A DNA stretch of 32,264 nucleotides from a virus: positions 1 through 32,264 of the IMG/VR virus record IMGVR_UViG_3300029199_000279, one strand, 5' to 3'. A program made the position numbers and the translations under genes. Under the pieces are notes generated by a model. That model made no database searches. It saw only the letters and a list, made by a program, of their open reading frames with translations, and was not told the origin of the DNA. Below are positions 3,314-27,804 of the stretch, one piece after another (position 1 is the first letter of the stretch; the number at the start of each line of letters is the position of its first letter).

Positions 3314-3352
3314 ACCGAAACCCTCTCTCGTCAACAGTCTTGGCTTAAGAAA

Positions 3353-3366
3353 GAGCAATATCGCTC
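3353..3366. promoter_or_regulatory. Operator (14-bp palindrome) in the leftward cro promoter
   Basis: The site is GAGCAATATCGCTC, an interrupted dyad with GAGC/GCTC arms. It sits immediately after a TTGACA -35 hexamer on the minus strand (3370-3375), in the -35/-10 spacer of the promoter for the cro-like gene. The same site in reverse orientation occurs at 4557-4570. It is probably the binding site of CI and/or Cro. Confidence 0.82.
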
Positions 3367-3369
3367 TTT

Positions 3370-3375
3370 TGTCAA
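3370..3375 (-). promoter_or_regulatory. -35 box of leftward early promoter
   Basis: TTGACA on the minus strand, followed by a 17-base spacer that contains the operator at 3353-3366. The -10 region (about TTTCTT) is weak. The layout matches that of the rightward promoter at 4571. Confidence 0.65.
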
Positions 3376-3389
3376 GAGCGATGTCGCTT
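3376..3389. promoter_or_regulatory. Operator copy 2 (imperfect)
   Basis: GAGCGATGTCGCTT matches the 14-bp consensus GAGCRATATYGCTC with two changes. It lies between the cro promoter -35 box and the repressor gene, so it could control both directions. Confidence 0.65.
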
Positions 3390-4556: not shown

Positions 4557-4593
4557 GAGCGATATTGCTCTTGACAAAGTTGCGATATTGCTC
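4557..4593 (+). promoter_or_regulatory. Rightward early promoter with two operators
   Basis: Operators lie at 4557-4570 (GAGCGATATTGCTC) and 4580-4593 (TTGCGATATTGCTC), with a TTGACA -35 hexamer at 4571-4576 between them. The second operator fills the -35/-10 spacer exactly as at the cro promoter. The -10 region is weak. This promoter would drive the plus-strand operon from 4630 onward, including SSB, DGR1 and perhaps the recombinase, under CI control. The 4495-4629 gap holds nothing else recognisable apart from the weak hairpin at 4519. Confidence 0.75.
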
Positions 4594-4629
4594 TTTCCTT
4601 CGAAGCGTCAAACGGACGGAGGCTTAGCA

Positions 4630-7999: not shown

Positions 8000-8023
8000 C
8001 CCAAGGACATGAAAGGGCTACCC

Positions 8024-8560
8024 ATGACCAAGACCGATCACACCGAACTCCCCGCCATCGGCGCTCCGTTCGAGGGCGGATTCTACGCCGGAAAGTTCTT
8101 CGGCGCGGATGGCGCACCCTACGCATTGATCGTCGCGCCAAAAGCCGAAGGCGAAACCGAATGTGTTTTCAAGGCCAAGCGCACCGCCGACAAGGGCGCG
8201 CGCAGCCTGCGTGATGGCCTCGCCAACTCCGAGGCCATGAACGACGATAACCACCCCGCCGCCCGGTTCTGCCGCTCCCTGACCATCGGCGGCTTCGACG
8301 ACTGGTACCTGCCCAGCCGCCACGAGGCCGCGCTGCTGGCCGAGAACCTGATGCCCGGTAAGGACTATGTGCCGGAACAGACTGTGGCGGACGCCTTCAA
8401 GGAAGACGGGCCGGAAGCTTTCAGCCGCACGCTGTACTGGACCTCGACGGAGTTCTCGCCCGGCTCCGCCTGGGTCCAGTACTTCGACTTCGGCTACCAG
8501 TACGGCGGCGACAAGGCCTGGTCCCTCCGCGTCCGCGCCGTCCGCAAATACCCCCTTTAA
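8024..8560 (+). CDS. DGR1 target protein 1 (DUF1566, C-type-lectin-like fold)
   Basis: A 178-residue DUF1566-type protein. Family features are PAIGAPFEGGFYAG, the GGFDDWYLPSRHEAALL motif and the terminal YWTSTEF-W-SLRVRAVRK pattern. The last 30 residues are encoded by variable repeat VR1 (8461-8547), which matches the template repeat TR1 except at adenine positions. This puts hypervariable residues on the presumed ligand-binding face near the C-terminus. There is no signal peptide or transmembrane span, so it is cytoplasmic or virion-bound. A paralogue follows immediately. The ATG at 8024 is preferred over one at 8009 because GAAAGGG precedes it. Confidence 0.9.
   Translation: MTKTDHTELPAIGAPFEGGFYAGKFFGADGAPYALIVAPKAEGETECVFKAKRTADKGARSLRDGLANSEAMNDDNHPAARFCRSLTIGGFDDWYLPSRHEAALLAENLMPGKDYVPEQTVADAFKEDGPEAFSRTLYWTSTEFSPGSAWVQYFDFGYQYGGDKAWSLRVRAVRKYPL
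8461..8547 (+). repeat. DGR1 variable repeat VR1
   Basis: This 87-bp segment aligns without gaps to TR1 (9797-9883). All 11 differences lie at TR adenines, most in AAC codons changed to TAC, GAC, TTC or GGC. The 3' end, from TCCCTCCGCGTCC on, is identical to TR1 and would serve as the initiation-of-homing region. Confidence 0.95.
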
Positions 8561-8573
8561 CGCTTACCCATTT

Positions 8574-8596
8574 CCCAGGCCGCTGTGCGGCCTGGG
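8574..8596 (+). other. Post-VR1 hairpin/cruciform (DGR homing element)
   Basis: A perfect 10-bp stem, CCCAGGCCGC / GCGGCCTGGG, with a TGT loop. It starts 26 bases beyond the end of VR1, just after the target stop. The same distance separates VR2 from its hairpin, although the stem sequence there differs. Such hairpins downstream of the VR raise homing efficiency in the Bordetella phage DGR. A terminator role is less likely as no T-run follows. Confidence 0.85.
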
Positions 8597-8623
8597 GCAA
8601 CACCTGCAACCAGGAGAAAACCC

Positions 8624-9145
8624 ATGAACGACACTAAGATTCCCGCCATCGGCGAGCCTTTCGGCGGCGGCTTCTTCGCCGGGCTGTACTACGAAAACGG
8701 CATTCGTCACGCCCTGATCGTGGCCCCCAAGGCCGAGGGCCAAGCCGGCAGCCTGAAATGGGGCGAGCGCGGCGAGACGGGAGCCCGCTCGCTGATCGAC
8801 GGCCTCGCCAATACCCGCGCCCTTGGCGACGACCACCCCGCCGCCAAATTCTGCCGCGACCTGCGCATCGGCGGGTTCGACGACTGGCACCTGCCCGCAA
8901 TCGACCAGATGTCCGTCCTGCGCGCCAACCTCACGCCGGAAGACGATCACGTCCCCGCGCAAACCACCGCCGAGGCGTTCAAGGAGGGCGGCACCGAAGC
9001 CTTCGACATCAGCGAGTGGTACTGGACATCGACCGAATGGTCCGGCGGCTACGCCTGGGTCCAGGACTTCAGCTACGGCTACCAGACCACCAGCGTCAAG
9101 GACTGGTCCCTCCGCGTCCGCGCCATCCGCAAATGTCCGATTTAA
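8624..9145 (+). CDS. DGR1 target protein 2 (DUF1566, C-type-lectin-like fold)
   Basis: A 173-residue paralogue of the preceding protein, sharing PAIGEPFGGGFFAG, HALIVAPKAEG, GGFDDWHLPAIDQM and the WYWTSTEWSGGYAWVQ-SLRVRAIRK end. The C-terminal 30 residues come from VR2 (9045-9132). It lacks a signal peptide. A clear AGGAG ribosome-binding site precedes ATG 8624. Two tandem targets fed by one TR allow independent diversification of two related binding proteins, perhaps subunits of one complex. What they bind cannot be inferred. Avd1 follows 61 bases downstream. Confidence 0.9.
   Translation: MNDTKIPAIGEPFGGGFFAGLYYENGIRHALIVAPKAEGQAGSLKWGERGETGARSLIDGLANTRALGDDHPAAKFCRDLRIGGFDDWHLPAIDQMSVLRANLTPEDDHVPAQTTAEAFKEGGTEAFDISEWYWTSTEWSGGYAWVQDFSYGYQTTSVKDWSLRVRAIRKCPI
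9045..9132 (+). repeat. DGR1 variable repeat VR2
   Basis: This 88-bp segment aligns without gaps to TR1 (9796-9883). Of 10 differences, eight are at TR adenines. The other two are a T-to-A next to a mutated adenine and a G-to-A near the 3' end. Confidence 0.95.
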
Positions 9146-9158
9146 CCATTAACCAATT

Positions 9159-9182
9159 CCCCGACCGCTCCGGCGGTCGGGG
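9159..9182 (+). other. Post-VR2 hairpin/cruciform (DGR homing element)
   Basis: A perfect 10-bp stem, CCCCGACCGC / GCGGTCGGGG, with a TCCG loop. It starts 26 bases beyond VR2, exactly as for VR1. The stem differs in sequence from the VR1 hairpin yet keeps its length, position and pairing. Confidence 0.85.
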
Positions 9183-9206
9183 TGCTGCGGCCTAGGGAGG
9201 TTTCGC

Positions 9207-9557
9207 ATGGCGCGCGCCACTGATTTGCCGATTTACCGGGCGGCCTACGATCTGCTCAAGCTTCTGGCGAAGCTGACGCAGCAGTATCCGCGCGGCTATC
9301 GGCAAGGACTGGCGCGCGAGGTCTTTACCGAAGCCCAGGCGGTCGTGGTCGGAATCTTCCGCGCCAACTGCGCAGCCGACAAAGCGCCGATCCTGGAAAA
9401 TCTGCGAGAGCACCTGGAAACGCTCAAGCTGCTGCTTCGGCTCTCCAAGGACCTTCACCTGATCTCCCCCGGCCAATTCGGGGCCACGGTCGAACTCACC
9501 GACGCCATCGGTAAGCAGGCGTCGGGATGGATCAAATACGCAAGGAGTCGCGCCTGA
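9207..9557 (+). CDS. avd: Avd, DGR1 accessory variability protein
   Basis: A 116-residue, all-helical basic protein of the Avd / four-helix-bundle family (related to 23S rRNA intervening-sequence proteins). Typical features are LPIYRAAYDLLKLLAKLTQQ, an LREHLETLKLLLRLSKDLHL helix and the terminal IGKQASGWIKYARSR. In known DGRs, Avd forms a pentamer that binds the reverse transcriptase and TR RNA and is needed for cDNA synthesis. It lies between the target genes and TR1, the canonical order. AGGGAGG precedes the ATG at 9207. Confidence 0.93.
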   Translation: MARATDLPIYRAAYDLLKLLAKLTQQYPRGYRQGLAREVFTEAQAVVVGIFRANCAADKAPILENLREHLETLKLLLRLSKDLHLISPGQFGATVELTDAIGKQASGWIKYARSRA

Positions 9558-9883
9558 TGTCCGAAGGTCAAGGCTTTCGCGCCTGTGCGCATCATTTGGT
9601 CGGGGTAGCGTCGGCGAAGATGCCCACGGGCTTTGCCCGCAGATTTAATAATCTGCCGGTGAAACCGGCGGTGGCCGCCGCTCCAAGCGCTATGGTGGAT
9701 ACGGCGGGCCTGCTCCCCCGCGCGTCCCGGCGCGGCTTGGCTGGCGTCGATGCCGACCCGGCAATCGCCAGCCCGGCCTGTAAACCCCCGTCTGCGCGGC
9801 TACGCCTGGGTCCAGAACTTCAACAACGGCAACCAGTACAACAACGACAAGGACTGGTCCCTCCGCGTCCGCGCCGTCCGCAA
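9558..9883 (+). ncRNA. DGR1 template RNA with structured 5' region
   Basis: This region between avd and the reverse transcriptase has no convincing gene of its own and ends in TR1. It folds into a row of hairpins: GGGC/GCCC at 9628-9638, a 7-bp stem GCAGATT/AATCTGC with TAAT loop at 9639-9656, CCGGT/ACCGG at 9656-9668, GGCGG/CCGCC at 9667-9679, and a two-part stem at 9739-9773 (GGCTGGCG/CGCCAGCC outside, TGCCG/CGGCA inside). Neighbouring short hairpins share bases and may be alternative folds. It is probably the RNA recognised by Avd and RT for template-primed cDNA synthesis. Exact ends are unknown. Confidence 0.75.
9796..9883 (+). repeat. DGR1 template repeat TR1
   Basis: An 88-bp, AAC-rich template. 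Read in the target frame it gives GYAWVQNFNNGNQYNNDKDW followed by the SLRVRAVRK end. The AAC codons at the variable sites cannot mutate to stop codons by adenine changes. It is invariant relative to VR1 and VR2 outside adenines, apart from two VR2 positions. It ends only 12 bases before the RT start ATG. Confidence 0.96.
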
Positions 9884-9895
9884 GTGGAATGCGTC

Positions 9896-11017
9896 ATGCC
9901 ATCAGAGATCACCGTGGCCCAACTTTTCGAAGCCTACTACGACTGCCGCCGCTCCAAGCGAACCACGCGCGCCGCCTTGGCGTTCGAGGTGAACCTGGAG
10001 GAAAACCTTCTCACCCTACTGCATGAGCTTCGGACGGGCACGTGGCAGCCGTCGCCAGCGACGGTCTTCGCCATCACCAGGCCAAAGCCGCGCGAGGTCT
10101 GGGCCGCAGACTTCCGCGACCGCATCGTCCATCACCTCGTTTATCGCGCCATCGCGCCCCTGTTCGAACCGTCGTTTATCGCCGACTCATGCGCTTGCAT
10201 CCCCGGACGCGGCACCCTGTACGGGGCGGACAGGGTGCGCCGACACCTGTTGAGCGCCACCGAAAGCTGGACCAAGCCCGCCTTCGTGTTGAAGGCCGAC
10301 ATCGCCAACTTCTTCGGCTCCATCCGTCACGCCGATCTGTTCGCCATGCTGGCCCGCCGCGTCAAGGACCCGACCGTGCTGGACCTGTGCCGCAAGCTTG
10401 TCTTCCAGGACGTGCGCCAAGGCGCGATCCTGCGCGGTGCGGCCCATCACATGGCTTTGGTTCCGCGCCATAAGAGCCTCTTCCACGCGCCGCCCGGAAC
10501 GGGGCTGCCCATCGGCAACCTGTCCAGCCAGTTCTTCGCCAACGTCTATCTCGACGGCCTGGACCAGATGGTCAAGCGCCGCCTCCGCATGCGCCATTAC
10601 GTTCGCTATGTGGACGACATGGTGTTGGTCCACCCGGACCCGAAGACGCTGCTCCGCGCGGCGGACGCCATCCGGGAGCATCTAGCCGGGATCGGGTTGG
10701 CCTTGGCCGAGAGCAAGACCTTTGTCGCGCCCGCCGACCGGGGTGTGGATTTTGTCGGCCAGGTCATCCGCCCGCACAGAACGATAGGCCGCGCCAAGAC
10801 GCACAGGGCGGCCATGCACCGCCTTTCAGCAATGCCGAAGGAAGACATGGCGGAAAGCGTAAATTCCTACCTCGGCCTTTTCCGCCACACCGGCAGCCGC
10901 GCCCAGTGCGCCGCCATCGCGCGGCTCGCGCACCAGCGCGGGCTCAAGGTTTCCAAGGACCTGAACAAGGTCGCCATCAACACAGCTTTTTCAAAGAGAA
11001 GGAGGCAACGCCCATGA
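9896..11017 (+). CDS. DGR1 reverse transcriptase
   Basis: A 373-residue DGR-type reverse transcriptase. It opens with SEITVAQLFEAYYDCRRSKR, typical of DGR RTs. Catalytic motifs follow: KADIANFF (133-140, first Asp), GLPIGNLSSQ (203-212; SQ instead of the SP of retroviral and group II enzymes is a DGR mark) and YVDD (238-241). It copies TR1 RNA with adenine-specific errors and supplies cDNA to VR1 and VR2. The start ATG 9896 follows the TR at once; GTG 9884 is a possible alternative. The longer frame from 9527 would read through the template RNA and is not the protein. Its stop overlaps the exonuclease start (ATGA). Confidence 0.96.
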   Translation: MPSEITVAQLFEAYYDCRRSKRTTRAALAFEVNLEENLLTLLHELRTGTWQPSPATVFAITRPKPREVWAADFRDRIVHHLVYRAIAPLFEPSFIADSCACIPGRGTLYGADRVRRHLLSATESWTKPAFVLKADIANFFGSIRHADLFAMLARRVKDPTVLDLCRKLVFQDVRQGAILRGAAHHMALVPRHKSLFHAPPGTGLPIGNLSSQFFANVYLDGLDQMVKRRLRMRHYVRYVDDMVLVHPDPKTLLRAADAIREHLAGIGLALAESKTFVAPADRGVDFVGQVIRPHRTIGRAKTHRAAMHRLSAMPKEDMAESVNSYLGLFRHTGSRAQCAAIARLAHQRGLKVSKDLNKVAINTAFSKRRRQRP

Positions 11018-17502: not shown

Positions 17503-19881
17503 TTAATTCACGTGGACCCGGCTATCCTCGGCCACGGCGGTAATCTCGACCTGCTCGCCGCCGTTCCTCGGCTTCACGGCGAGGGTCCGGCAAAGCTGGG
17601 ACCATTTCACCCCAGGACCGAACGTGAAATACGTCCGTTCCTCGGCGCTGCCCACGTATGGCGTCATCGTCAGCGCCTCCAGCAGGTGGACCTCGTCCGC
17701 CGCCGTCCCGGCCTCGCATTGATACGGCCCGGCCAGCGAGCCGTCCCGCTTGCGCAGCGCGATGTAGTGCGTCTCGCCCGCCGTCCATTCCAGCGGCTCG
17801 GACAGCGTGAGCACCTCCGCCTCGTCGTCCCAGTCCACCACCTCGCCGCCCTGGCCCCAGCGCGGCATGTCGTGGGTGACCGCGATCAGATCGCCGTAGG
17901 TCGGGATCATGCCCTCCAGTTCCGTCCGGAAGGTCACCATCTTGCGCCGATAGCGGTTGTCGGCGGCCATGTAGTCGCCCTCTCGGGTGGCGTGCGCCAG
18001 CGTGACGCAGCCGAACAGGCTCACTGTGGCGGGCTTCTCTGCAGCGGAATCGGCAAGCTTCACCGTCACCTCGGCGGGCTTCCAGGTCCGCTCGTTGAAG
18101 TACTCGACGATCACAGCGTCCGCCGTGTCGTCGGACGGCATGACATAGGCGACCTTGAACGAACCCTTCACGATGTTGCGCGGGCCGAACATGGCCACCG
18201 GAAGGCTCTGCGGCCCGTCGCGCACCACGCGCACGATGCCGCCCTGCAGGATCGGCACGGCGCGCCCACACCGCGCGATGCGCGTCAGCGCGTCCCACAC
18301 CGTGGTCTTGGTATCGAACACGCCATCGAAGGTATCCCCTCGCGCCGCCAGTGTGGCGTCCAGCGCGGCCAGGTCGGCCAGCGGCAGCCGCGCGTCCGTC
18401 AGTTGCGCCCCATACTCCGCCTTCGCCACGTCGCAGGCCGCCCATACCAGGCTCCGCGTCGCCTGCGGCGCGGACCACGTTTGCGTTCCCGCGTCCCAGA
18501 CCGGCAGCTTGCGGGTCTGGATCACGTTCACCGCGCGAGCCGTCCGCTGCGACAGGTTGTCCGTCGCCCGCATTTTGACCAGCAGCAGCGTCACGTCGGC
18601 GAACGTCTCCGGCCCGTCCACGAATGCCTTGAGGCCCGACCAGCGGATTTCATGGCCCGCCCGCGACGAGGTGTCCTTGGCGTCCGTCCGGCGCAGCCGC
18701 ACCTCGTATCGCCCCGCCACCGGCAGGGTGTACTTGTACGAAAGCCGGATCGCCGTGTTCGTGGACGCCGTGTGGCTTTCGGACGCCAGCGTCGACCAGG
18801 TCCCGGCCCCCACGGGCAGGTCGTCGTCGTCGATCTCGCGCGCCTCCACCACCCAGGTGATGGTCTTGGAATCCAGCCCGCCCGCGTCGTTGGCGTAATA
18901 GAGTCCGCGCGGAAACACGATATCCACCCCGGCCTCGTTGGCCGTGGTGTCCACCGGGTTGAGCGTGAACGGCCCCACATAGCCGTCGCCGGTCTGCTCG
19001 TTGGTGCCTTTCAGTTCCTGGCCGGACACCTCGGGCCGGGTGATGACGTTCACGTCGAACAGCGTGATCGCGCCGCCGGGCGGCACCACCTCGTAGGTGA
19101 TTTCCTCGAAATTGGCGATGTCGGTCTCGGCGATCCGGATGCGCTCGATGTCGTACTCGCCCAGGCCGAGGCAGTGAGGCTGGTACAGATACTGCTCGTT
19201 GCCGATGTACTCCGCCCATGGCTCGGCCATGATCAGGTCCGGGAACACCCGGTGCCTGCCGTACTGCGCCGGGATGGCCTGCCCCAGCCGCGCGCTATTG
19301 CCTTGCCCCTGCAGGCTGTAGGTCGGCGATGGCGCTGGCAGAGATCCGAAGTTGCTGGAAAACGCGGCGGCGGACGGCTTCGGCGGCGGGATCAGCGCGT
19401 TGAGAAGCGCGCCCCCCGCCATGGATACGATGCCGCCAACGACGCCACCGAAAATCTTGGCCGTGAGCATCTGGCTCGCCGTAAGCGGTCCCATGGCCCC
19501 GCCCATCAGGACGGAATCGGCGAACCACCCGGCGGCCACGCCGCCCACATACGCCCCGGCCACCATGATGGCGATGGACAGAACCGTCTTCAGCGGATTC
19601 TTGCCGCCGCCCCCTCCGCCGCCGCCATGCGGCAGCGCGACGAAGGCGCAGATGTCGCCAGGGCGGATCACGGTCGTGTCCCAATCCGCGCGCATCAGCG
19701 CCGCGCCGTTGAACAGGCAGACGGTCGGCACCGCGAACTCGTCGATGCCCTGCGCGTCCAGCCAGCCACGCACGGTCATGGCGTGCGGAACGGGCCGGAC
19801 GGCCCGGTCGCGCTCCGGCATGAAGGCGTTCGCTACATGGACGACAACACCGGGGCGATCCATTACTTGTACGGCGCTCAT
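17503..19881 (-). CDS. Tail tip attachment protein J (host specificity protein)
   Basis: A 792-residue tail tip protein of the lambda J type. The N-terminal ubiquitin-like part (PTVCLFNGAALMRADWDTTV, then IRPGDICAFVALP) is followed by a poly-glycine stretch and hydrophobic segment (LSIAIMVAGAYVGGVAAGW), as in TipJ homologues. The central region has the SARLGQAIPAQYGRHRVFPD motif and the REVR-like beta domains. It forms the distal tail tip that contacts the host surface. It is shorter than lambda J (1132 residues), lacking much of the C-terminal receptor-binding part, consistent with a separate receptor-binding protein (the DGR2 target). It overlaps the upstream gene by four bases. Confidence 0.92.
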   Translation of the reverse strand: MSAVQVMDRPGVVVHVANAFMPERDRAVRPVPHAMTVRGWLDAQGIDEFAVPTVCLFNGAALMRADWDTTVIRPGDICAFVALPHGGGGGGGGKNPLKTVLSIAIMVAGAYVGGVAAGWFADSVLMGGAMGPLTASQMLTAKIFGGVVGGIVSMAGGALLNALIPPPKPSAAAFSSNFGSLPAPSPTYSLQGQGNSARLGQAIPAQYGRHRVFPDLIMAEPWAEYIGNEQYLYQPHCLGLGEYDIERIRIAETDIANFEEITYEVVPPGGAITLFDVNVITRPEVSGQELKGTNEQTGDGYVGPFTLNPVDTTANEAGVDIVFPRGLYYANDAGGLDSKTITWVVEAREIDDDDLPVGAGTWSTLASESHTASTNTAIRLSYKYTLPVAGRYEVRLRRTDAKDTSSRAGHEIRWSGLKAFVDGPETFADVTLLLVKMRATDNLSQRTARAVNVIQTRKLPVWDAGTQTWSAPQATRSLVWAACDVAKAEYGAQLTDARLPLADLAALDATLAARGDTFDGVFDTKTTVWDALTRIARCGRAVPILQGGIVRVVRDGPQSLPVAMFGPRNIVKGSFKVAYVMPSDDTADAVIVEYFNERTWKPAEVTVKLADSAAEKPATVSLFGCVTLAHATREGDYMAADNRYRRKMVTFRTELEGMIPTYGDLIAVTHDMPRWGQGGEVVDWDDEAEVLTLSEPLEWTAGETHYIALRKRDGSLAGPYQCEAGTAADEVHLLEALTMTPYVGSAEERTYFTFGPGVKWSQLCRTLAVKPRNGGEQVEITAVAEDSRVHVN

Positions 19882-20395: not shown

Positions 20396-21004
20396 CTACC
20401 GCGCGAGGCCGGGGAAGTCCTTGGCCGTGTAGAACTTGGCCGGAAACGCCTTGTTGCCGATGTCCAGCATCCGCGCCCTTCCCGTCACGTGCATGGGGTT
20501 GGCCTCCACCTCGGACATCACCATGGTGATCGGCGGGTCCATCTGCGGCCCTTCGATGTCGGTCGACAGATAGGGCCGATAGGTGACCTCGATCTTGTCT
20601 TGCGACACCGCCGCCTCGTCCAGCGCGTCCGTGATCTCGCGGCCCACGTTGTCCATGGTGACCGTGATTTCCGGCACCGGCACCGTATCGACTGGCGGCA
20701 GGTCCAGGTCGAAGGCGAGCGCGATGAACGGCACCATCTGCCCGGCATCTTCCGGTGCGTCCGCCTCAAGGCGGGCCACCAAACCGACCAGATCCCGGTC
20801 CTCCGGGTCCATGGCGTCCAGGACCGCCTGCACCTCCGCGCCGCCGAGCGCCACCCAGCTTTCCTCGTCGGCGAAGTTTCGCACGACGCGGATCGGATGG
20901 GTGAACGTCGGGTGGCGGATTTCCAGGGTGTGCAGGATAACCACGTCGGACGGAGCCGCCGCGTATGCCTCCTGTATCGCCGCCGACAGCGCCGGATCAG
21001 GCAT
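20396..21004 (-). CDS. DUF1833 tail protein
   Basis: A 202-residue DUF1833-type phage protein. The N-terminus LSAAIQEAYAAAPSDVVILH leads to TLEIRHPTFTHPIRVVRNFA, the most recognisable part of the family, and the C-terminus ends in NKAFPAKFYTAKDFPGLAR. Its position before the NlpC/P60 hydrolase and J gene corresponds to lambda minor tail protein L, so it probably belongs to the tail tip. It overlaps the 84-residue gene upstream by eight bases. The DGR2 cassette lies directly upstream. Confidence 0.88.
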   Translation of the reverse strand: MPDPALSAAIQEAYAAAPSDVVILHTLEIRHPTFTHPIRVVRNFADEESWVALGGAEVQAVLDAMDPEDRDLVGLVARLEADAPEDAGQMVPFIALAFDLDLPPVDTVPVPEITVTMDNVGREITDALDEAAVSQDKIEVTYRPYLSTDIEGPQMDPPITMVMSEVEANPMHVTGRARMLDIGNKAFPAKFYTAKDFPGLAR

Positions 21005-21251
21005 GGTTCAGAACCTCGGTCTTGGTGAGCCCGTAGCGCTCGATCACCGTCAGGTCCTCGACATCCTGCCAGTCGGGCGCGACGTAGCCCGTATCGCCCG
21101 GCTGCAGCGTGTTGTCGTAGTCCTCGGGGTACGCGGCCATGTCCACGCGCCGCGTGAGCGTGCCTTTCAGGTACGCCATGAACTCGTCGTACTCGGGCGT
21201 GCCCGCCAGCGCGTCCAGGTCCTCGCGGGTGTTGATGGGCTTGCGGTTCAT
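20997..21251 (-). CDS. 84-residue protein coupled to the DGR2 reverse transcriptase
   Basis: An 84-residue acidic protein, with REDLDALAGTPEYDEFMAYL near the N-terminus and a C-terminal VEDLTVIERYGLTKTEVLNH. No family is recognised. Its start overlaps the RT stop by four bases (ATGA) and its stop overlaps DUF1833, so it is cotranslated with both. It could be a tail protein whose gene was originally next to the fibre gene before DGR2 inserted, or a DGR accessory factor. Composition does not decide. Confidence 0.75.
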   Translation of the reverse strand: MNRKPINTREDLDALAGTPEYDEFMAYLKGTLTRRVDMAAYPEDYDNTLQPGDTGYVAPDWQDVEDLTVIERYGLTKTEVLNHA

Positions 21252-22228
21252 CGATCTGCCTCCTTCAGGCTGGTTAACAGGTTGTGGGTATCCGCCCATT
21301 GGGCGTGTCCGCGCCAACTGGCCAGGAAGCGGTCCAGCTTCTCCCGGTTGCCGTTGGCCGAATACTTTCTGATCTTGCGTTTCGCCCGCACCACGCTTTG
21401 GCGGCGCAGCAGCTTGTGTGTGGGCCAGATGCGATAACCTAGGAAGTTGAGCCCCCGCGTCGCCGGGGCGACCGACCACTTGGAAAACCGCAGACCCAGC
21501 GCCTCGTCGATAAATGCCTCCGCATCGTCCTTCAGCGCCCGCAGGTCCGCCGCCGAATGGCCGAACACCACCGTGTCGTCCATGTAGCGCACGAACGTCC
21601 GCCACCCCAGGTCCAGCAGGAAGCGGTCGAAGGCCGTGGCGTACACGTTGGCCCACAACTGGCTGGTCAGGCTGCCGATGGGCAGGCCGCGACCCTCCGG
21701 CGGTGTGATGGCCTCGATCAACGCCAACGTCGCCCGGCAACTGATCTTCTTGCGGACCATGACGTTCAGCCGCGCCCGGTCGATGCTGTGGAAGTACCCG
21801 GCGAAGTCCATCTTCAGGTAATAGACCGGCCCTTCCTTCCCCAGCGACCGCATCAGCGCCTGTGCCCGCACCGCGCCCGCGTGCGTTCCCCGGCCCGTCC
21901 GGCAGGCATACGACATGGGCACGAAGGTGCGCTCAAAGATGGGCTCGATCACGTTCACCAGCGCGTGCTGCGCTAGGCGGTCGCGGAACGGCAGCGCCAT
22001 GATCTCGCGCGGCTTCGGGTCGCGCACCATGAACCGGCGGTATTCACCGGGGCGGTACGTCCCCGCCGCGATCTCTTGTTGCAGCATCCACAGGTTCGCT
22101 TCGGCGTACTCCTTGAACTCCAGGTATCCGAACGTGTACCGCTTGCCTCGCGCCGTCTGGCGATAGGCGCTGCGCATGTTTTCGTCCGCCAGCACCAGTG
22201 GCATCAGGTTGCGATGTTTTCTGCCCAC
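21248..22228 (-). CDS. DGR2 reverse transcriptase
   Basis: A 326-residue DGR-type reverse transcriptase. N-terminal GRKHRNLMPLVLADENMRSA and YRQTARGKR are typical of this class. Motifs are LKMDFAGYFHSI (first Asp about 141), GLPIGSLTSQ (181-190, the DGR-type SQ) and YMDD (215-218). The C-terminus has the GLNFLGYRIWPTHKLLR thumb-proximal segment. The GTG at 22228 is preferred: GGAG lies eight bases upstream and the extra residues fit the family, whereas an ATG nine codons later would lose them. A longer frame from 22423 reads through the template and is not used. Only distantly similar to the DGR1 enzyme. Confidence 0.95.
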   Translation of the reverse strand: MGRKHRNLMPLVLADENMRSAYRQTARGKRYTFGYLEFKEYAEANLWMLQQEIAAGTYRPGEYRRFMVRDPKPREIMALPFRDRLAQHALVNVIEPIFERTFVPMSYACRTGRGTHAGAVRAQALMRSLGKEGPVYYLKMDFAGYFHSIDRARLNVMVRKKISCRATLALIEAITPPEGRGLPIGSLTSQLWANVYATAFDRFLLDLGWRTFVRYMDDTVVFGHSAADLRALKDDAEAFIDEALGLRFSKWSVAPATRGLNFLGYRIWPTHKLLRRQSVVRAKRKIRKYSANGNREKLDRFLASWRGHAQWADTHNLLTSLKEADR

Positions 22229-22509
22229 GATGTCGGCTCCGGCTTTCGATGTTTCGCTACTCGCCGCTCGACCGAACCCCGAAATGTGTTCGCCGTGGCA
22301 GGGTGGGGAAGCTGACCACCTGTAAGGGTGTGTCGGCTCCGGCGGCCTTGACCGACCGAACGCCTGGAAACGATGGTCACAGCGGCCCCGCGCCCCGATG
22401 TTGTTGTTCGAGTTCGAGGGCACGTTGTTCCAGTTCGCGGAGCGGGAACCGGAGTTCGACGTGTTGCTCCAGTTGCCGCCGAATTGGGCCGCGTCTTTTG
22501 TGCCCTTCC
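22229..22509 (-). ncRNA. DGR2 template RNA region (TR2 plus downstream spacer)
   Basis: Between avd2 and RT2, the minus-strand transcript carries TR2 (22494-22374) followed by a 145-base spacer up to the RT start. Spacers of similar size after the TR in Bordetella phage DGR are needed for cDNA synthesis. No gene is seen in the spacer. Ends of the RNA are not defined. Confidence 0.7.
22374..22494 (-). repeat. DGR2 template repeat TR2
   Basis: A 121-bp repeat with the same sequence as 22932-23052 apart from 12 positions. In the target frame it encodes asparagine-rich FGGNWSNTSNSGSRSANWNN, then VPSNSNNNIGARGRCD. Eleven of the 12 differences fall at coding-strand adenines; the exception is TCC to GCC. 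AAC codons mark the variable sites. Confidence 0.96.
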
Positions 22510-22842
22510 CTACCCCTTGCGCCTCCCCGACCTGATCCAGGCGTTCAGCATCCCGCCGACCTCCGCCAGGTGCACCTGCGCCACCCGGTGTTGGTTCTGC
22601 GAGATCAGCTTCCGCTTTGGATCGGCCAGGAAGCGCAACCAGAATCGCAAGGACGCCAGACCGGCGTCCGCCGCGTAAAGACGCGACGGCTGGCCCGACT
22701 TCCCCGCGACGATGAACAAATCCACCTGCGCGAACATCGCCCGCAGGAAGGCGTCCCGCGCCACCCCGTGCTTTCGCGCGATGTTCTGTGCGATGGGGTA
22801 CATGTAGTTCACGAACCCCTCGTACTTTTCGACGATGGCCAT
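22510..22842 (-). CDS. avd: Avd, DGR2 accessory variability protein
   Basis: A 110-residue all-helical basic protein of the Avd family. It has EKYEGFVNYMYPIAQNIARK, a central ASLRFWLRFLADPKRKLIS helix and the C-terminal VAQVHLAEVGGMLNAWIRSG that matches the family end. It should assemble with RT2 and TR2 RNA. It lies between the tail-fibre VR and TR2, in canonical DGR order. The ATG at 22842 is the best start, though its ribosome-binding site is weak; GAGGAAG lies 17 bases upstream. Little similarity to the DGR1 Avd beyond the fold. Confidence 0.88.
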   Translation of the reverse strand: MAIVEKYEGFVNYMYPIAQNIARKHGVARDAFLRAMFAQVDLFIVAGKSGQPSRLYAADAGLASLRFWLRFLADPKRKLISQNQHRVAQVHLAEVGGMLNAWIRSGRRKG

Positions 22843-22894
22843 CTGCCGCGCGCTGATTACTTCCTCGCGCGCCACCCCTTGTTGCGGCGGATCA

Positions 22895-22917
22895 AGGGGT
22901 CCGCTTTCGCGGCCCCT
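22895..22917 (-). other. Post-VR hairpin/cruciform of DGR2
   Basis: On the minus strand AGGGG-CCGC / GCGG-A-CCCCT with a GAAA loop: nine base pairs with one bulged A. It begins 14 bases beyond the VR and overlaps the fibre stop codon. Same type of element as the DGR1 hairpins. Confidence 0.75.
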
Positions 22918-24058
22918 AGACAAGTCGCAGGTGGTCACAGCGGCCCCGCGCCCCGATGCTGCTGCCCGAGCTCGAGGGCACGAGGTTCCAGCGCGCGGAG
23001 CGGGAACCGGCGTTCGACGTGTTGCCCCAGTCGCCGCCGAATTGGGCCGCGTTGGGCTGGTTGTAGTAGCTGCCGCGCCCTTCCGTGCTGGCCGACCAGG
23101 TCGCCCCGCTGTCCGGGCCGCCCAGCATCGCGCCCCATTGCCACATGACGCCGGTCGCCTGCTCGACACCCCACTTCGAGACGTAACCGGCGTTGTGCTG
23201 AACCGTGATCTGGTCCGCGCCGATGGACTGCGCCTCCGTCACGCCATAGGCCGCCGCCGCGAACTCGTCGTAGGTCAGCAGCCCCTTGCCGTGGTCCGAC
23301 ATGACCTCGGCGGCCTCGTACCACGTCAGCGATCCGTAATCCGCCGTGCCGTCGCCGCCGAAGCCCAGCGCCACCTTGGGCGGGCTTGTTCCGTCCGCGA
23401 TGGTGGCCCCGTTCTTCGACGTGCCGTCCGTGTGGTGGTTCACGCCCAGCAGGTAGATGTCGCACCAGAACTTGCCAGCGACCAGCGCCATGCCGCGCGG
23501 GTCGGCGCATTCGGGCCGCCACTTCAGGTCCCACAGGCTGTACTCGTTGATGTTTGGCGTCGAATCCACGTTCAGGTTCGACAGCGCATAGTGGAAGCCG
23601 CCGATCTGCCGCGAGGTGCTCGCCGTGTACCCGCTGGGGGCCGAGAAGTTGGCGTCGGCGCGCACGCTGCCGTCGTCGCAGACATAGATGGCGTAATCCG
23701 TCCCCGCCGTCAGCGCGGGCATCGTTACCGCCGTATCCACCGAAAAATCGTGGACGACGCCATTCAATTCCACCTTGGTCCCGGCCTTCAGACTGACGGT
23801 GCCCGCGCCGGTCTTGGTGAAGGCGACCGAGTCCGCATCGGCCTTGCCGAACAGCATGTAAGCCGCCGACGCCGACGTGCCCTCGATCATCAGGTCCCAG
23901 TACGTGCCGTTGCTCGGGTCCACCCCGGCGGCGGCATCCTGGATGCAGATATAGACGTTGTTGTTGTAGCGGCAGGTGTCGAACTTCTCGTAAGCCTGCG
24001 CGCCGTTGTAATCGCCTTTCCAGGAATAGACGATTTTCCCAAGATCGATGGTCGGCAT
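22916..24058 (-). CDS. DGR2 target: tail fibre / receptor-binding protein with hypervariable C-type-lectin fold
   Basis: A 380-residue protein. The N-terminus (MPTIDLGKIVYSWKGDYNGA... YEKFDTCRYNNNVYIC) is a carbohydrate-binding-like module common in phage tail proteins. A C-terminal C-type-lectin/FGE-type domain (from about residue 170: SLWDLKWRPECADPRGMALV ... LTWYEAAEVMSDHGKGLLTY) ends in the VR-coded stretch (22932-23052). It should be the receptor-binding tip protein whose binding face is varied by DGR2, like Mtd in Bordetella phage BPP-1. Its start overlaps the upstream gene by ATGA. The last residues, after VR, are HLRLV. Confidence 0.9.
   Translation of the reverse strand: MPTIDLGKIVYSWKGDYNGAQAYEKFDTCRYNNNVYICIQDAAAGVDPSNGTYWDLMIEGTSASAAYMLFGKADADSVAFTKTGAGTVSLKAGTKVELNGVVHDFSVDTAVTMPALTAGTDYAIYVCDDGSVRADANFSAPSGYTASTSRQIGGFHYALSNLNVDSTPNINEYSLWDLKWRPECADPRGMALVAGKFWCDIYLLGVNHHTDGTSKNGATIADGTSPPKVALGFGGDGTADYGSLTWYEAAEVMSDHGKGLLTYDEFAAAAYGVTEAQSIGADQITVQHNAGYVSKWGVEQATGVMWQWGAMLGGPDSGATWSASTEGRGSYYNQPNAAQFGGDWGNTSNAGSRSARWNLVPSSSGSSIGARGRCDHLRLV
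22932..23052 (-). repeat. DGR2 variable repeat
   Basis: The 121-bp C-terminal coding segment of the fibre gene, aligned without gaps to TR2 at a constant offset of 558 bases. Amino-acid changes from TR are Asn to Asp, Arg, Leu, Ser and Gly, plus Ser to Gly and Ser to Ala. The final 24 or so bases before the stop side (encoding GARGRCD) are unchanged and likely serve as the homing initiation site. Confidence 0.95.
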
Positions 24059-24549
24059 CAGAATGTCACCTCCAGGTGTCCGTTGGCGTTGATGGAAAAG
24101 ACCGCGTTGCCCGGCAACACGGCCCACTCGTCAGGGGCGCTGGCGTCGAAGGGATCGTCGCCGTGCGACCACTCCAGCGCCGCGCCGTTGCGGGCAAGGC
24201 CGTGCCCGGCGAACACCAGCGACGCGGCGGCCTGCTGCGCCTTCGCCGCATGGTGCAGCGCGCTATATTGTCCGGGCGCGACCTCCGTGTCCTCCGGCTC
24301 TTCGGCCCAGGCGTGTGCCTGATCCGAATACGCCTGGGATTCGTCGCGCAACGTGGTGACCGTTGCCACCACGTCCGCCGCCTCGTATGTGGCCTCCAGG
24401 TCCGCGATGGCCTTGGCGGCGCTCTTGACGTTGCCGCCCTCCGTGGCGACCTCCGTCGCGGCGTCGCCGTGAACGATGTCGTGCAGCAGGCCGGAATCCG
24501 TCTCCACCTGCGTCGTGGCCGTTTCCAGCCGTTCCTGCAATGTCGGCAT
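24058..24549 (-). CDS. Tail protein upstream of the fibre gene
   Basis: A 163-residue protein. The first two thirds are a helical, alanine-rich region (LQERLETATTQVETDSGLLH; SAAKAIADLEATYEAADVV; AHAWAEEPEDTEV). The end is beta-rich (ALEWSHGDD, AVFSINANGHLEVTF). The layout suggests a trimeric coiled-coil fibre or a connector between tail tip and receptor-binding protein. No family assigned. Its stop overlaps the fibre start by ATGA. Confidence 0.78.
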   Translation of the reverse strand: MPTLQERLETATTQVETDSGLLHDIVHGDAATEVATEGGNVKSAAKAIADLEATYEAADVVATVTTLRDESQAYSDQAHAWAEEPEDTEVAPGQYSALHHAAKAQQAAASLVFAGHGLARNGAALEWSHGDDPFDASAPDEWAVLPGNAVFSINANGHLEVTF

Positions 24550-25092: not shown

Positions 25093-27804
25093 TTACCGGC
25101 GCGCGCCAGCCGCCGGATCGAGGCCGTAGCGCCGTTCCAGCGTCGGGGCCATGCCCTCGCCGCGCGAGACGTTGCGGGAAATCCGGTTCTCGATTTCCTC
25201 GACGATGATTTCCAGGTTCATTCCGCCATCCCGGCCTTGGCTGACCTGCGCACGGGCCTGGGCAACCTGGCCCGCGTTGTTGTTCACGGTAACGTTGACG
25301 CCGGGGCCTTTTGACGCGGCCATGGCGGCCAGCCCGGCAATCGTCTTGGCCGTGTTGTCCTGCTGCGCCTGCGTCAGCACGCGCTCGCCGCGCAAAGCGA
25401 TGATCGGGGTCTCTCCGGGGCGCAGCCCCGGCACCGTTCCTCCGCCATGGAAACGTGGCGCGCCCGCGAACGCCAGGGGGCTCGCCCGCCTGGAGAACGT
25501 GGGCGCGCCGACCGTCCCACCCCCATGGTTGAAGCCGAAAACGCCGTCCAGCATCCCGTCGAGCAGGCCGTCCACGGCACCGCCGATGGCCTTGTCGTAG
25601 ATGCGCCCGGCGATCCGCCGCTGCAGGTCGTTTAGGACCGATTGCAGCCCGTCCGACATGGACTTGGCTCCGGTCACGATATCCACGAACGCCGTTTTGG
25701 CGGTCTGGTTCATGCCATTGATGTCGTCTTCCCACTGCTGCGCGGTGTTGGTCGACGCATCGCGGATGTCCGTCAGCGCACGCTTGATGCCGTCCGCAGC
25801 CTCGCGGCTGGAACGCAGGCGCTCTTCCTCGGCGGCCTTCACGCGGGTGGCTTCTTCCTCCCGGACCTTGGCGATCTCCGACGAGGCCCATGCCTCGATC
25901 TGCGCCCGAGCCCGCGCGGCTTCCTCGCCCGCGATCTTGAGCTTCTCAAGCTGCGCCAGCTTGGCGGCCTTTTCCTTCTCGATCAGGGCAATCCGCGCGC
26001 CCGTGGCGCGCAGGTAGTCGCTGTCCACCTGATCCAGGTACTGCCGCTGCTCTTCGCGCAGCTTCTCAAGCTCCTTGCGGATTTTCTCCGGGTCGAACTT
26101 GCTGCCGCCGCCGGTTCCTTTCGTTTCCTCGCCGCCGCCGATTCCCAGCAGCTTCTTCTGGGCATCCGTGGCGTTGCCGTCCAGGGCGGCCAGCGCGGCG
26201 TTGATTTCGTCCAGATTCCCCTTCGCCTCGACCAGCGGCTCTGCCCACTCGCCCATGGACGCGACAAGGCCCTTGAGCCGCTCGTCCTGGTCCGCCAGGG
26301 CCGAGACCTGGGTGTATAGTTCGGCGGCGCTGATCTTGCCTTCCAGGAACTGCTGCTGCAGAGCGCGGGCCGAGGCGAACACTTTCTTCGCTTCCGCGAC
26401 GGCCTTGTCTCCCGGCCCGAGCATGCCGGGGTCCATCTGCTTCGCAAGATCGAACTGGAATCGGTCGATGCGGAAGTTCCCGGCGCGGGCATAGATTTCC
26501 TGCTGCCGCACGACATCCTGCGCGGCGGCCTGCGCCGCCTCAAGCTGCGCCTTGCGGAGCGCCCGCACCTCTGCGGCCATCTCCTTCACCTTGCCGGTGC
26601 TGGTGTCGATGATGCCGTTAAAGCGGCTCAACGCCTCGCGGTGCATGTCGGCGGCTTCCTCCGCCTCGCTCTGACGGGTGGCCAGCAGGTAAACGCCAGC
26701 CGACAGTGCGGCGATGGCCACGCCGACAGGGCCGCCGAAAAACGACATTGCCGCGTTAAGGCCCCTGGCCGCCAGAGCGGCTCCGCGCGTCGCCGCCGAC
26801 ATGGCGATCATGCGCGCCGTGGCCGCCGTGCCGAAGGTGTTCATCATCTGCAGGCCCGCGACAGCGCCCGCGATCTCCACGCGGAACAGCGCCACCGCGC
26901 CAGCCGACATCCGCGCCACCATCAGCCCCGCAAGGGCCGAGGCGGCGGCTCCGGCCACATCCGTGATGGTGTCCAGGTTCTCCGCCGCGCCGCCGACCGC
27001 TTCCGTCAACCCCTTCAGGACCGATGTGATGGCGTCGTTCGCGCCCATCTCGCCGATGGTGACGAACAGGTCGTCGAACGAGTCCTTGAGGTTCGACGCC
27101 GCGCCGCCGATGGTCTCCATCTTCCGCGCCATCGCCCCGCCGAAATTGTTCTCGGCCAGGCGGCGCAGATAGTCCTGAATTTCGTCGGCGTTCTTGCCGA
27201 CCGTCTCGGTCACGCCACGGAAGGTGAACGACACCTTCTCGCCCTCCGACGCCGCCTTGATGCCGAACTCCTTCAGGCGCTCGAACTCGCCGACCGCCGC
27301 GTCCGCCACCGCCTCCACGAAGTCGATCACGGTCTTGTTCGGGATGGCCGAGGCCACGTTGCCGAACGCGCGCAGGGAGTCCGCCGAGGCGTCCAGCCCC
27401 AGGTTCTTCAGGCGAATGAACGCCGTCACCACCTCGGACAATTCGAACGGCGTCTCCCTGGCGAACTCGCGCAGCATGTCCATGGCGCGGGCCGCGTTCT
27501 CCGCCGACCCGGTCGCGGTTTCCAGACCGGCGGACAGGTCCTGGAACGTCTGGTTGATGCGCACCACCTGCGTAACCAGCGCGCCGACGCCAAGCGCGGC
27601 GGCCATGCTGGACGCGAACGCCGCCATCTCGCTGCGCAGCGCGCGGCTCGCCTTATCGAGCGCGAGCAGCCCGCGCGACGCAGGCGCGCTGGATCGCTCG
27701 ATGCGTTGCAGGGCGTCCTGGCCGTCCTTGCCCAGGCGCATCAGCGCCCGGCGGACAACCTCGCCGTCCTGCAGCGATACGCGATAGGTGATGTCATTCG
27801 CCAT
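25093..27804 (-). CDS. Tape measure protein
   Basis: A 903-residue tail length protein. The N-terminal half has the lambda-type tape measure features: GALVTQVVRINQTFQDLSAG, LREFARETPFELSEVVTAFI and FEAVADAAVG-like segments, then two hydrophobic stretches near residues 305-345 and 350-380. A long charged helical region follows, and the C-terminus has the glycine-rich FNHGGGTVGAPTFSRR and GLRPGETPIIALRGERVLTQ motifs common to these proteins. The length predicts a tail of ordinary siphovirus size. Its start overlaps the frameshifted chaperone stop by 11 bases. Confidence 0.96.
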   Translation of the reverse strand: MANDITYRVSLQDGEVVRRALMRLGKDGQDALQRIERSSAPASRGLLALDKASRALRSEMAAFASSMAAALGVGALVTQVVRINQTFQDLSAGLETATGSAENAARAMDMLREFARETPFELSEVVTAFIRLKNLGLDASADSLRAFGNVASAIPNKTVIDFVEAVADAAVGEFERLKEFGIKAASEGEKVSFTFRGVTETVGKNADEIQDYLRRLAENNFGGAMARKMETIGGAASNLKDSFDDLFVTIGEMGANDAITSVLKGLTEAVGGAAENLDTITDVAGAAASALAGLMVARMSAGAVALFRVEIAGAVAGLQMMNTFGTAATARMIAMSAATRGAALAARGLNAAMSFFGGPVGVAIAALSAGVYLLATRQSEAEEAADMHREALSRFNGIIDTSTGKVKEMAAEVRALRKAQLEAAQAAAQDVVRQQEIYARAGNFRIDRFQFDLAKQMDPGMLGPGDKAVAEAKKVFASARALQQQFLEGKISAAELYTQVSALADQDERLKGLVASMGEWAEPLVEAKGNLDEINAALAALDGNATDAQKKLLGIGGGEETKGTGGGSKFDPEKIRKELEKLREEQRQYLDQVDSDYLRATGARIALIEKEKAAKLAQLEKLKIAGEEAARARAQIEAWASSEIAKVREEEATRVKAAEEERLRSSREAADGIKRALTDIRDASTNTAQQWEDDINGMNQTAKTAFVDIVTGAKSMSDGLQSVLNDLQRRIAGRIYDKAIGGAVDGLLDGMLDGVFGFNHGGGTVGAPTFSRRASPLAFAGAPRFHGGGTVPGLRPGETPIIALRGERVLTQAQQDNTAKTIAGLAAMAASKGPGVNVTVNNNAGQVAQARAQVSQGRDGGMNLEIIVEEIENRISRNVSRGEGMAPTLERRYGLDPAAGARR

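Follow-up and report, generated by a model that had tools for sequence, protein, structure and literature searches.

Is the second diversity-generating retroelement (DGR) of this viral genome a working system, and what does it diversify? The window analyzed here is the entire IMG/VR virus record IMGVR_UViG_3300029199_000279 (32,264 bases, classed linear), and the element in question, DGR2, occupies positions 21248-24058. A preliminary description, made from the sequence alone, had presented it as an intact DGR that diversifies a tail-fiber protein and, by analogy with Bordetella phage BPP-1, switches host range. It is highly likely that DGR2 is a BPP-1-type DGR in a temperate lambda-like siphophage, where it varies a tail receptor-binding protein at its C-type-lectin tip. 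The earlier view that the element is complete and apparently intact is supported by its sequence, by the predicted fold, by the RNA, and by comparison with relatives. Its parts are the following (TR, template repeat; VR, variable repeat; RT, reverse transcriptase; IMH, initiation of mutagenic homing).

21248-22204, minus strand: DGR RT, 318 residues, matching BPP-1 bRT, with the motifs YMDD and PIGSLTSQ intact.
22232-22363, minus strand: structured spacer RNA from TR to RT (Rfam RF03022, Phage_DGR).
22313, minus strand: spacer adenine matching the cDNA-priming adenine (GUGGUC-A-GC) in an alignment with the BPP-1 spacer.
22374-22494, minus strand: TR, 121 nt.
22510-22842, minus strand: Avd accessory protein, 110 residues (bAvd profile, Bbp7).
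22895-22917, minus strand: post-VR DNA hairpin found by DNA folding, its 9-bp stem interrupted by a single bulged A and its loop GAAA.
22916-24058, minus strand: target gene with an ATG start, a 380-residue Mtd homologue by Pfam, PHROG, PDB, and fold.
22932-23052, minus strand: VR, 121 nt, at the 3' end of the target gene.
22932-22957, minus strand: GC-rich 3' end of the VR (IMH equivalent), ATCGGGGCGCGGGGCCGCTGTGACCA, identical in TR and VR and aligning with the BPP-1 IMH region.

The two repeats differ at 12 of 121 positions, and 11 of these differences fall on adenines of the TR coding strand, exactly as the preliminary description had reported, down to the coordinates. Adenines account for 28 of the 121 TR bases, which gives a hypergeometric probability of 1.7e-7 for at least 11 of 12 differences at A. 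From TR to VR, the changes at adenine sites are A to G (eight), A to C (two), and A to T (one), and all 11 hit the first or second codon position. Because the TR adenines occupy AAC, AGC, ACG, ATC, GAC, and CAA codons, their randomization can generate up to 7e14 protein variants and no stop codon. The single change away from adenines, T to G, converts Ser350 to Ala.

The target protein is homologous to Mtd of BPP-1. Against the solved structure (PDB 1yu4), residues 69-379 give an E value of 1.5e-113, residues 70-379 are 57% identical to BPP-1 Mtd, and profile matches include Pfam mtd_2nd (3.9e-27) and PHROG 11262 (1.4e-121). Residues ~70-380 comprise the Mtd beta-sandwich and C-type-lectin domains, with the VR in the lectin end. 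Structure prediction, which had been suggested as a check on the product of 22916-24058, returned the Mtd fold with its C-type lectin: the AlphaFold2 model, built with 38 aligned relatives (mean predicted local distance difference test score, pLDDT, 82.5), superimposes on 1yu4 with a root mean square deviation of 1.5 Å over 318 residues (Z 46) and on Mtd crystal structures overall at 1.4-1.7 Å over about 320 residues. What was earlier termed a "tail-fiber protein" is of a tail receptor-binding type with a C-type-lectin end, but it is an Mtd-type tip and not a fiber shaft. Codons that start with A, and are therefore programmed for variation, specify residues 343, 345, 346, 347, 349, 356, 358, 359, 363, 365, 367, and 368, plus N366. 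The BPP-1 Mtd counterparts are residues 344, 346, 347, 348, 350, 357, 359, 360, 364, 366, 368, and 369 (the window number being one less), and N366 is one programmed Asn beyond the BPP-1 set.

The likeness to BPP-1 had been offered as an analogy and turns out to be closer: every part is a direct homologue, and blastn aligns the two cassettes at 65% over 2.7 kb. The order target-avd-TR-RT, rightly described before as canonical, is that of BPP-1 (mtd-avd-TR-brt), and the spacing is also common to both. Identity at the protein level is 57% for the Mtd beta-sandwich and C-type lectin, 60% for bAvd, and 57% for bRT; the Phage_DGR spacer RNA, the post-VR GAAA hairpin, and the BPP-1 set of programmed residues are shared as well. 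The avd gene, whose start is an internal ATG within a longer open reading frame, encodes a protein matching Pfam bAvd (2.4e-30), NCBIfam NF033474 (1.4e-29; 102 bits, cut-off 80), and Bbp7 (4dwl, 7e-37). The RT matches BPP-1 bRT in its solved complex (8ub7, 1.3e-109) and PHROG 1423 (1.2e-111).

Two cassette parts, the spacer RNA and the post-VR hairpin, are additions to the preliminary description. The spacer matches RF03022 over its full length with 85.4 bits (gathering threshold 50). The column of the BPP-1 priming adenine, which we take to be spacer position 56, holds A in 35 of 42 Mtd-type spacers. In BPP-1, cDNA priming occurs at a spacer adenine (PMC12875486). The other 7 of the 42 Mtd-type cassettes have G in this column (window position 22313), and the adjacent bases are almost invariant.

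The hairpin begins within the target stop codon, 14 nt past the VR (-11 kcal/mol, z -4.8), in the same place and with the same loop as the BPP-1 hairpin GCGGGGCC-GAAA-GGCCCCGC. Such a hairpin is needed for efficient homing in BPP-1, and the loop consensus in phage DGRs is GRNA, with the hairpin 4-34 bp from the VR (PMC3240598). Among 76 distinct post-VR stretches, we found 53 with a perfect stem of at least 6 bp and a 4-nt loop, and 51 of these 53 loops were GRNA; the same type of hairpin followed the TR in 1 of 76. The window stem, being broken by its bulge, stands outside the 53 perfect hairpins.

DGR2 is anatomically complete and very probably functional. In the mechanism that we propose, the TR transcript would be held by the Avd-RT complex via the structured spacer and copied to cDNA with random bases opposite the TR adenines. 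The common GC-rich 3' end and the post-VR hairpin would then direct this cDNA to the 3' end of the Mtd-like gene, where it would take the place of the VR; the TR itself would not change. About 12-13 surface residues would thus be varied on the C-type-lectin tip of the tail receptor-binding protein, and phage progeny would then differ in the receptor they grip. Tail-tip diversification by DGR2 is strongly supported; this copy is presumably active, and the target is predicted to sit at the tail tip of the virion.

Does such diversification take place in nature? An alignment search returned 388 Mtd relatives from IMG/VR and another 29 from the species genomes of GTDB. In 87 related cassettes with an RT, 1056 of 1186 TR-VR differences (89%) lie at TR adenines, which make up 2200 of 10,648 TR bases (21%); tandem mtd copies or misplaced alignments account for some of the non-adenine cases in this uncleaned count, and a few cassettes entered it through more than one locus. 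Furthermore, five pairs of separate contigs carry cassettes that are 94.7-99.4% identical, with identical TRs and with VRs that differ at 7-20 sites; these sites are TR adenines in 7/7, 15/15, 16/16, 19/20, and 15/17 cases. Since near-identical cassettes with identical TRs differ in the VR almost only at TR adenines, the family diversifies in nature, and VR turnover occurs naturally within it. The pairs are other family members and give no evidence on the window's own copy. Such pairs, alike in the TR and unlike in the VR, offer ready natural material in which VR turnover could be measured.

Several observations weigh against a functional, tropism-switching DGR2. The T-to-G site lies inside the transferred stretch of the VR and is therefore an ordinary mutation or RT error that was never overwritten since. 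The hairpin stem has a bulged A, whereas the BPP-1 hairpin is perfect. We found no isolate or contig with the window's TR and another VR, and no near relative with the same TR in the phages, the plasmids, or the set of Mtd relatives searched (best about 60% amino acid identity), collections that may lack records very close to the window. The N-terminal 68 residues of the target differ from those of BPP-1 Mtd and are poorly modeled (mostly pLDDT ~50 or less), which leaves virion attachment a prediction. Finally, the sequence is a linear contig from a metagenome, with no host assigned. The first two of these points, together with the lack of population variants for this phage, would fit a DGR2 that was once active and is now decaying, its homing lost or weak. 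We consider this unlikely. Each of the three components has an open frame and is conserved, the RT motifs are intact, the spacer RNA scores well over threshold, and the priming adenine is retained; many relatives have comparable single non-adenine differences. As for the bulge, the perfect stem of the related cassette L052 is just 4 bp by the same scan, yet its VR differs from that of its sister L050 only at TR adenines (7/7). Since we found no near relative that carries another VR, and since a base is bulged in the hairpin, host-range switching by this phage is something that we infer.

The genes around the cassette bear on what the diversified protein is for.

25093-27804, minus strand: tape measure.
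24058-24549, minus strand: small tail-fiber-like protein, 163 residues, coupled to the target gene (PHROG 19294 tail fiber, 5e-5).
20396-21004, minus strand: minor tail protein, 202 residues.
17503-19881, minus strand: J-like central tail-tip protein, 792 residues (PHROG 469, 9.5e-147; PHROG 31, 8.2e-114).

The cassette is flanked by the tape measure, the minor tail protein, and the J-like tip, and so does lie inside the tail module, as had been claimed. The order in this minus-strand lambda-like operon is tape measure, a 171-residue virion protein, the 163-residue fiber-like protein, mtd, avd, TR, RT, minor tail proteins, and the J-like tip. The target start shares one base with the stop of the upstream 163-residue gene, whose product, a possible adapter, has no match in the fetched Mtd loci and none to gp19 of Marinomonas phage P12026. 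The phage is probably temperate, because it encodes an integrase-type recombinase and a repressor. Contig L212 has a J protein 82% identical to that of the window and DNA 80-83% identical from the 202-residue minor tail gene onward; at the place of the cassette's RT end it carries a Gly-rich tail-fiber-like gene (L212 positions 1-1240), and L212 starts inside that region. From this comparison, we read the mtd locus as a putative adhesin slot taken by different modules, with L212 showing part of the exchange only.

Residues 1-68 of the target have no match to BPP-1 Mtd. The BPP-1 N-terminal domain (residues 1-55), which other relatives retain at 56-91%, is absent here, and the segment resembles the N-termini that Pelagibacter phages and phage JS10 have on their fiber-like proteins (up to 47%), with a weak match to CBM5/12 (0.017, under the cut-off). 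The BPP-1 N-terminal anchor is apparently swapped in this protein for a CBM5/12-like module. Among the relatives compared, this module recurs in L017 alone (35%). The N-terminal part of Mtd relatives can be as short as about 10 residues or run to several hundred, with start codons set mechanically for this comparison, and also varies in sequence; given this variety, the diversifiable Mtd head rides on many anchors. The prototype tropism-switching cassette is therefore widespread and modular, its Mtd head and whole machinery recurring on unrelated N-terminal anchors.

The diversified protein might instead have a role apart from host-receptor binding, such as mucus or surface attachment, while J or another fiber chooses the host; we consider this improbable. 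The CBM5/12-like module and its likeness to Pelagibacter phage fiber N-termini lean that way, as does the J-like tip protein encoded alongside. Against this, Mtd of BPP-1 is a proven tropism determinant, and the Gly-rich tail-fiber gene in the same slot of L212, next to a J so similar, fits an interchangeable host adhesin. Scarcely credible is that TR and VR arose as an ordinary or chance duplication, were set apart by drift or gene conversion, and have no connection with the RT: although always possible in principle for two similar 121-nt stretches, it is ruled out by the adenine bias, running from TR to VR only, both here and in the 87 related cassettes and near-identical pairs.

BPP-1 has a short tail, whereas the lambda-like module of the window is of the long-tailed kind and includes a tape measure and a J protein; the window also differs from BPP-1 in the unrelated residues 1-68 of the target, the extra programmed Asn, the bulged hairpin, and a second DGR on the record. 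Mtd-DGR cassettes in IMG/VR (e.g., L050, L052, L056, and L099) have the same parts and adenine pattern, with Mtd proteins up to about 60% identical, and differ in their variable N-terminal modules. Mtd homologues without a DGR also occur in siphophages (P12026 and Synechococcus phages S-CBS1 and S-CBS3), where the Mtd fold and long tails are shared; the P12026 homologue aligns with the target from window residue 13, and neither an RT nor a complete Avd was found in P12026 and S-CBS3.

Further variants were seen among the relatives. L004, L006, L038, L040, L043, and L046 have tandem mtd copies that share a single TR-RT, and every copy has a VR. Mtd homologues up to 59% identical with no RT detected nearby occur in L021-L027, L033 (Jiella, Haematospirillum), L130, L131, and G074; these are either DGR-less adhesins or supplied by another RT. 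Besides an intact Mtd-DGR, contig L005 has an Mtd homologue (1181-6, minus strand) that is broken within its VR and continues in-frame as a helix-turn-helix protein.

The other DGR of the record lies in the early region, adjoining an ssb gene, with no tail association seen.

8009-11017, plus strand: DGR1, with two tandem Lcl_C-domain targets, Avd, TR (9797-9883), and RT.

Its VR differences fall on TR adenines in 11/11 and 8/10 cases. DGR1 and DGR2 are not recent duplicates, as their RTs are 33% and their Avds 27% identical and their TRs are unrelated. For comparison, we used 97 records, many of them fragments. None of the 48 other Mtd records has two Avds, and at most one full-length RT was present where tested; among 49 DGR1-type records, one (G074) has an Mtd, with no Avd, TR, or second RT for it. 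The pairing is in none of the 97, so the combination is rare in this sample of often fragmentary records. Two targets per DGR are known (PMC10743442), as are several TRs and VRs within one DGR (PMC6642488); in the portion of the open-license literature available to us, no phage was described as having two separate DGRs. The DGR2 machinery itself is well known; here it occurs with a different tail anchor in a long-tailed phage and is paired with an unrelated second DGR. We regard it as evenly balanced whether, in this small temperate siphophage, two DGRs operate side by side, independently and without cross-reaction. DGR2 would then act on an exchangeable tail-tip adhesin, an Mtd head joined to a local anchor in a slot that holds a different adhesin in L212, and DGR1 on two Lcl_C proteins of the early region, away from the tail genes, so that attachment and another binding function would be diversified separately. 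The window adds a case in which the orthogonality of two DGRs sharing a genome could be examined.

Each DGR1 VR is followed by a 10-bp GC-rich hairpin (window about 8575-8600 and 9150-9180, plus strand) with a TGT or TCCG loop, not GRNA; these hairpins may reflect different target recognition or may be terminators. Elsewhere on the record, a pair of 40-nt inverted repeats (3349-3388 and 4558-4597), 88% complementary, lies near a repressor gene.

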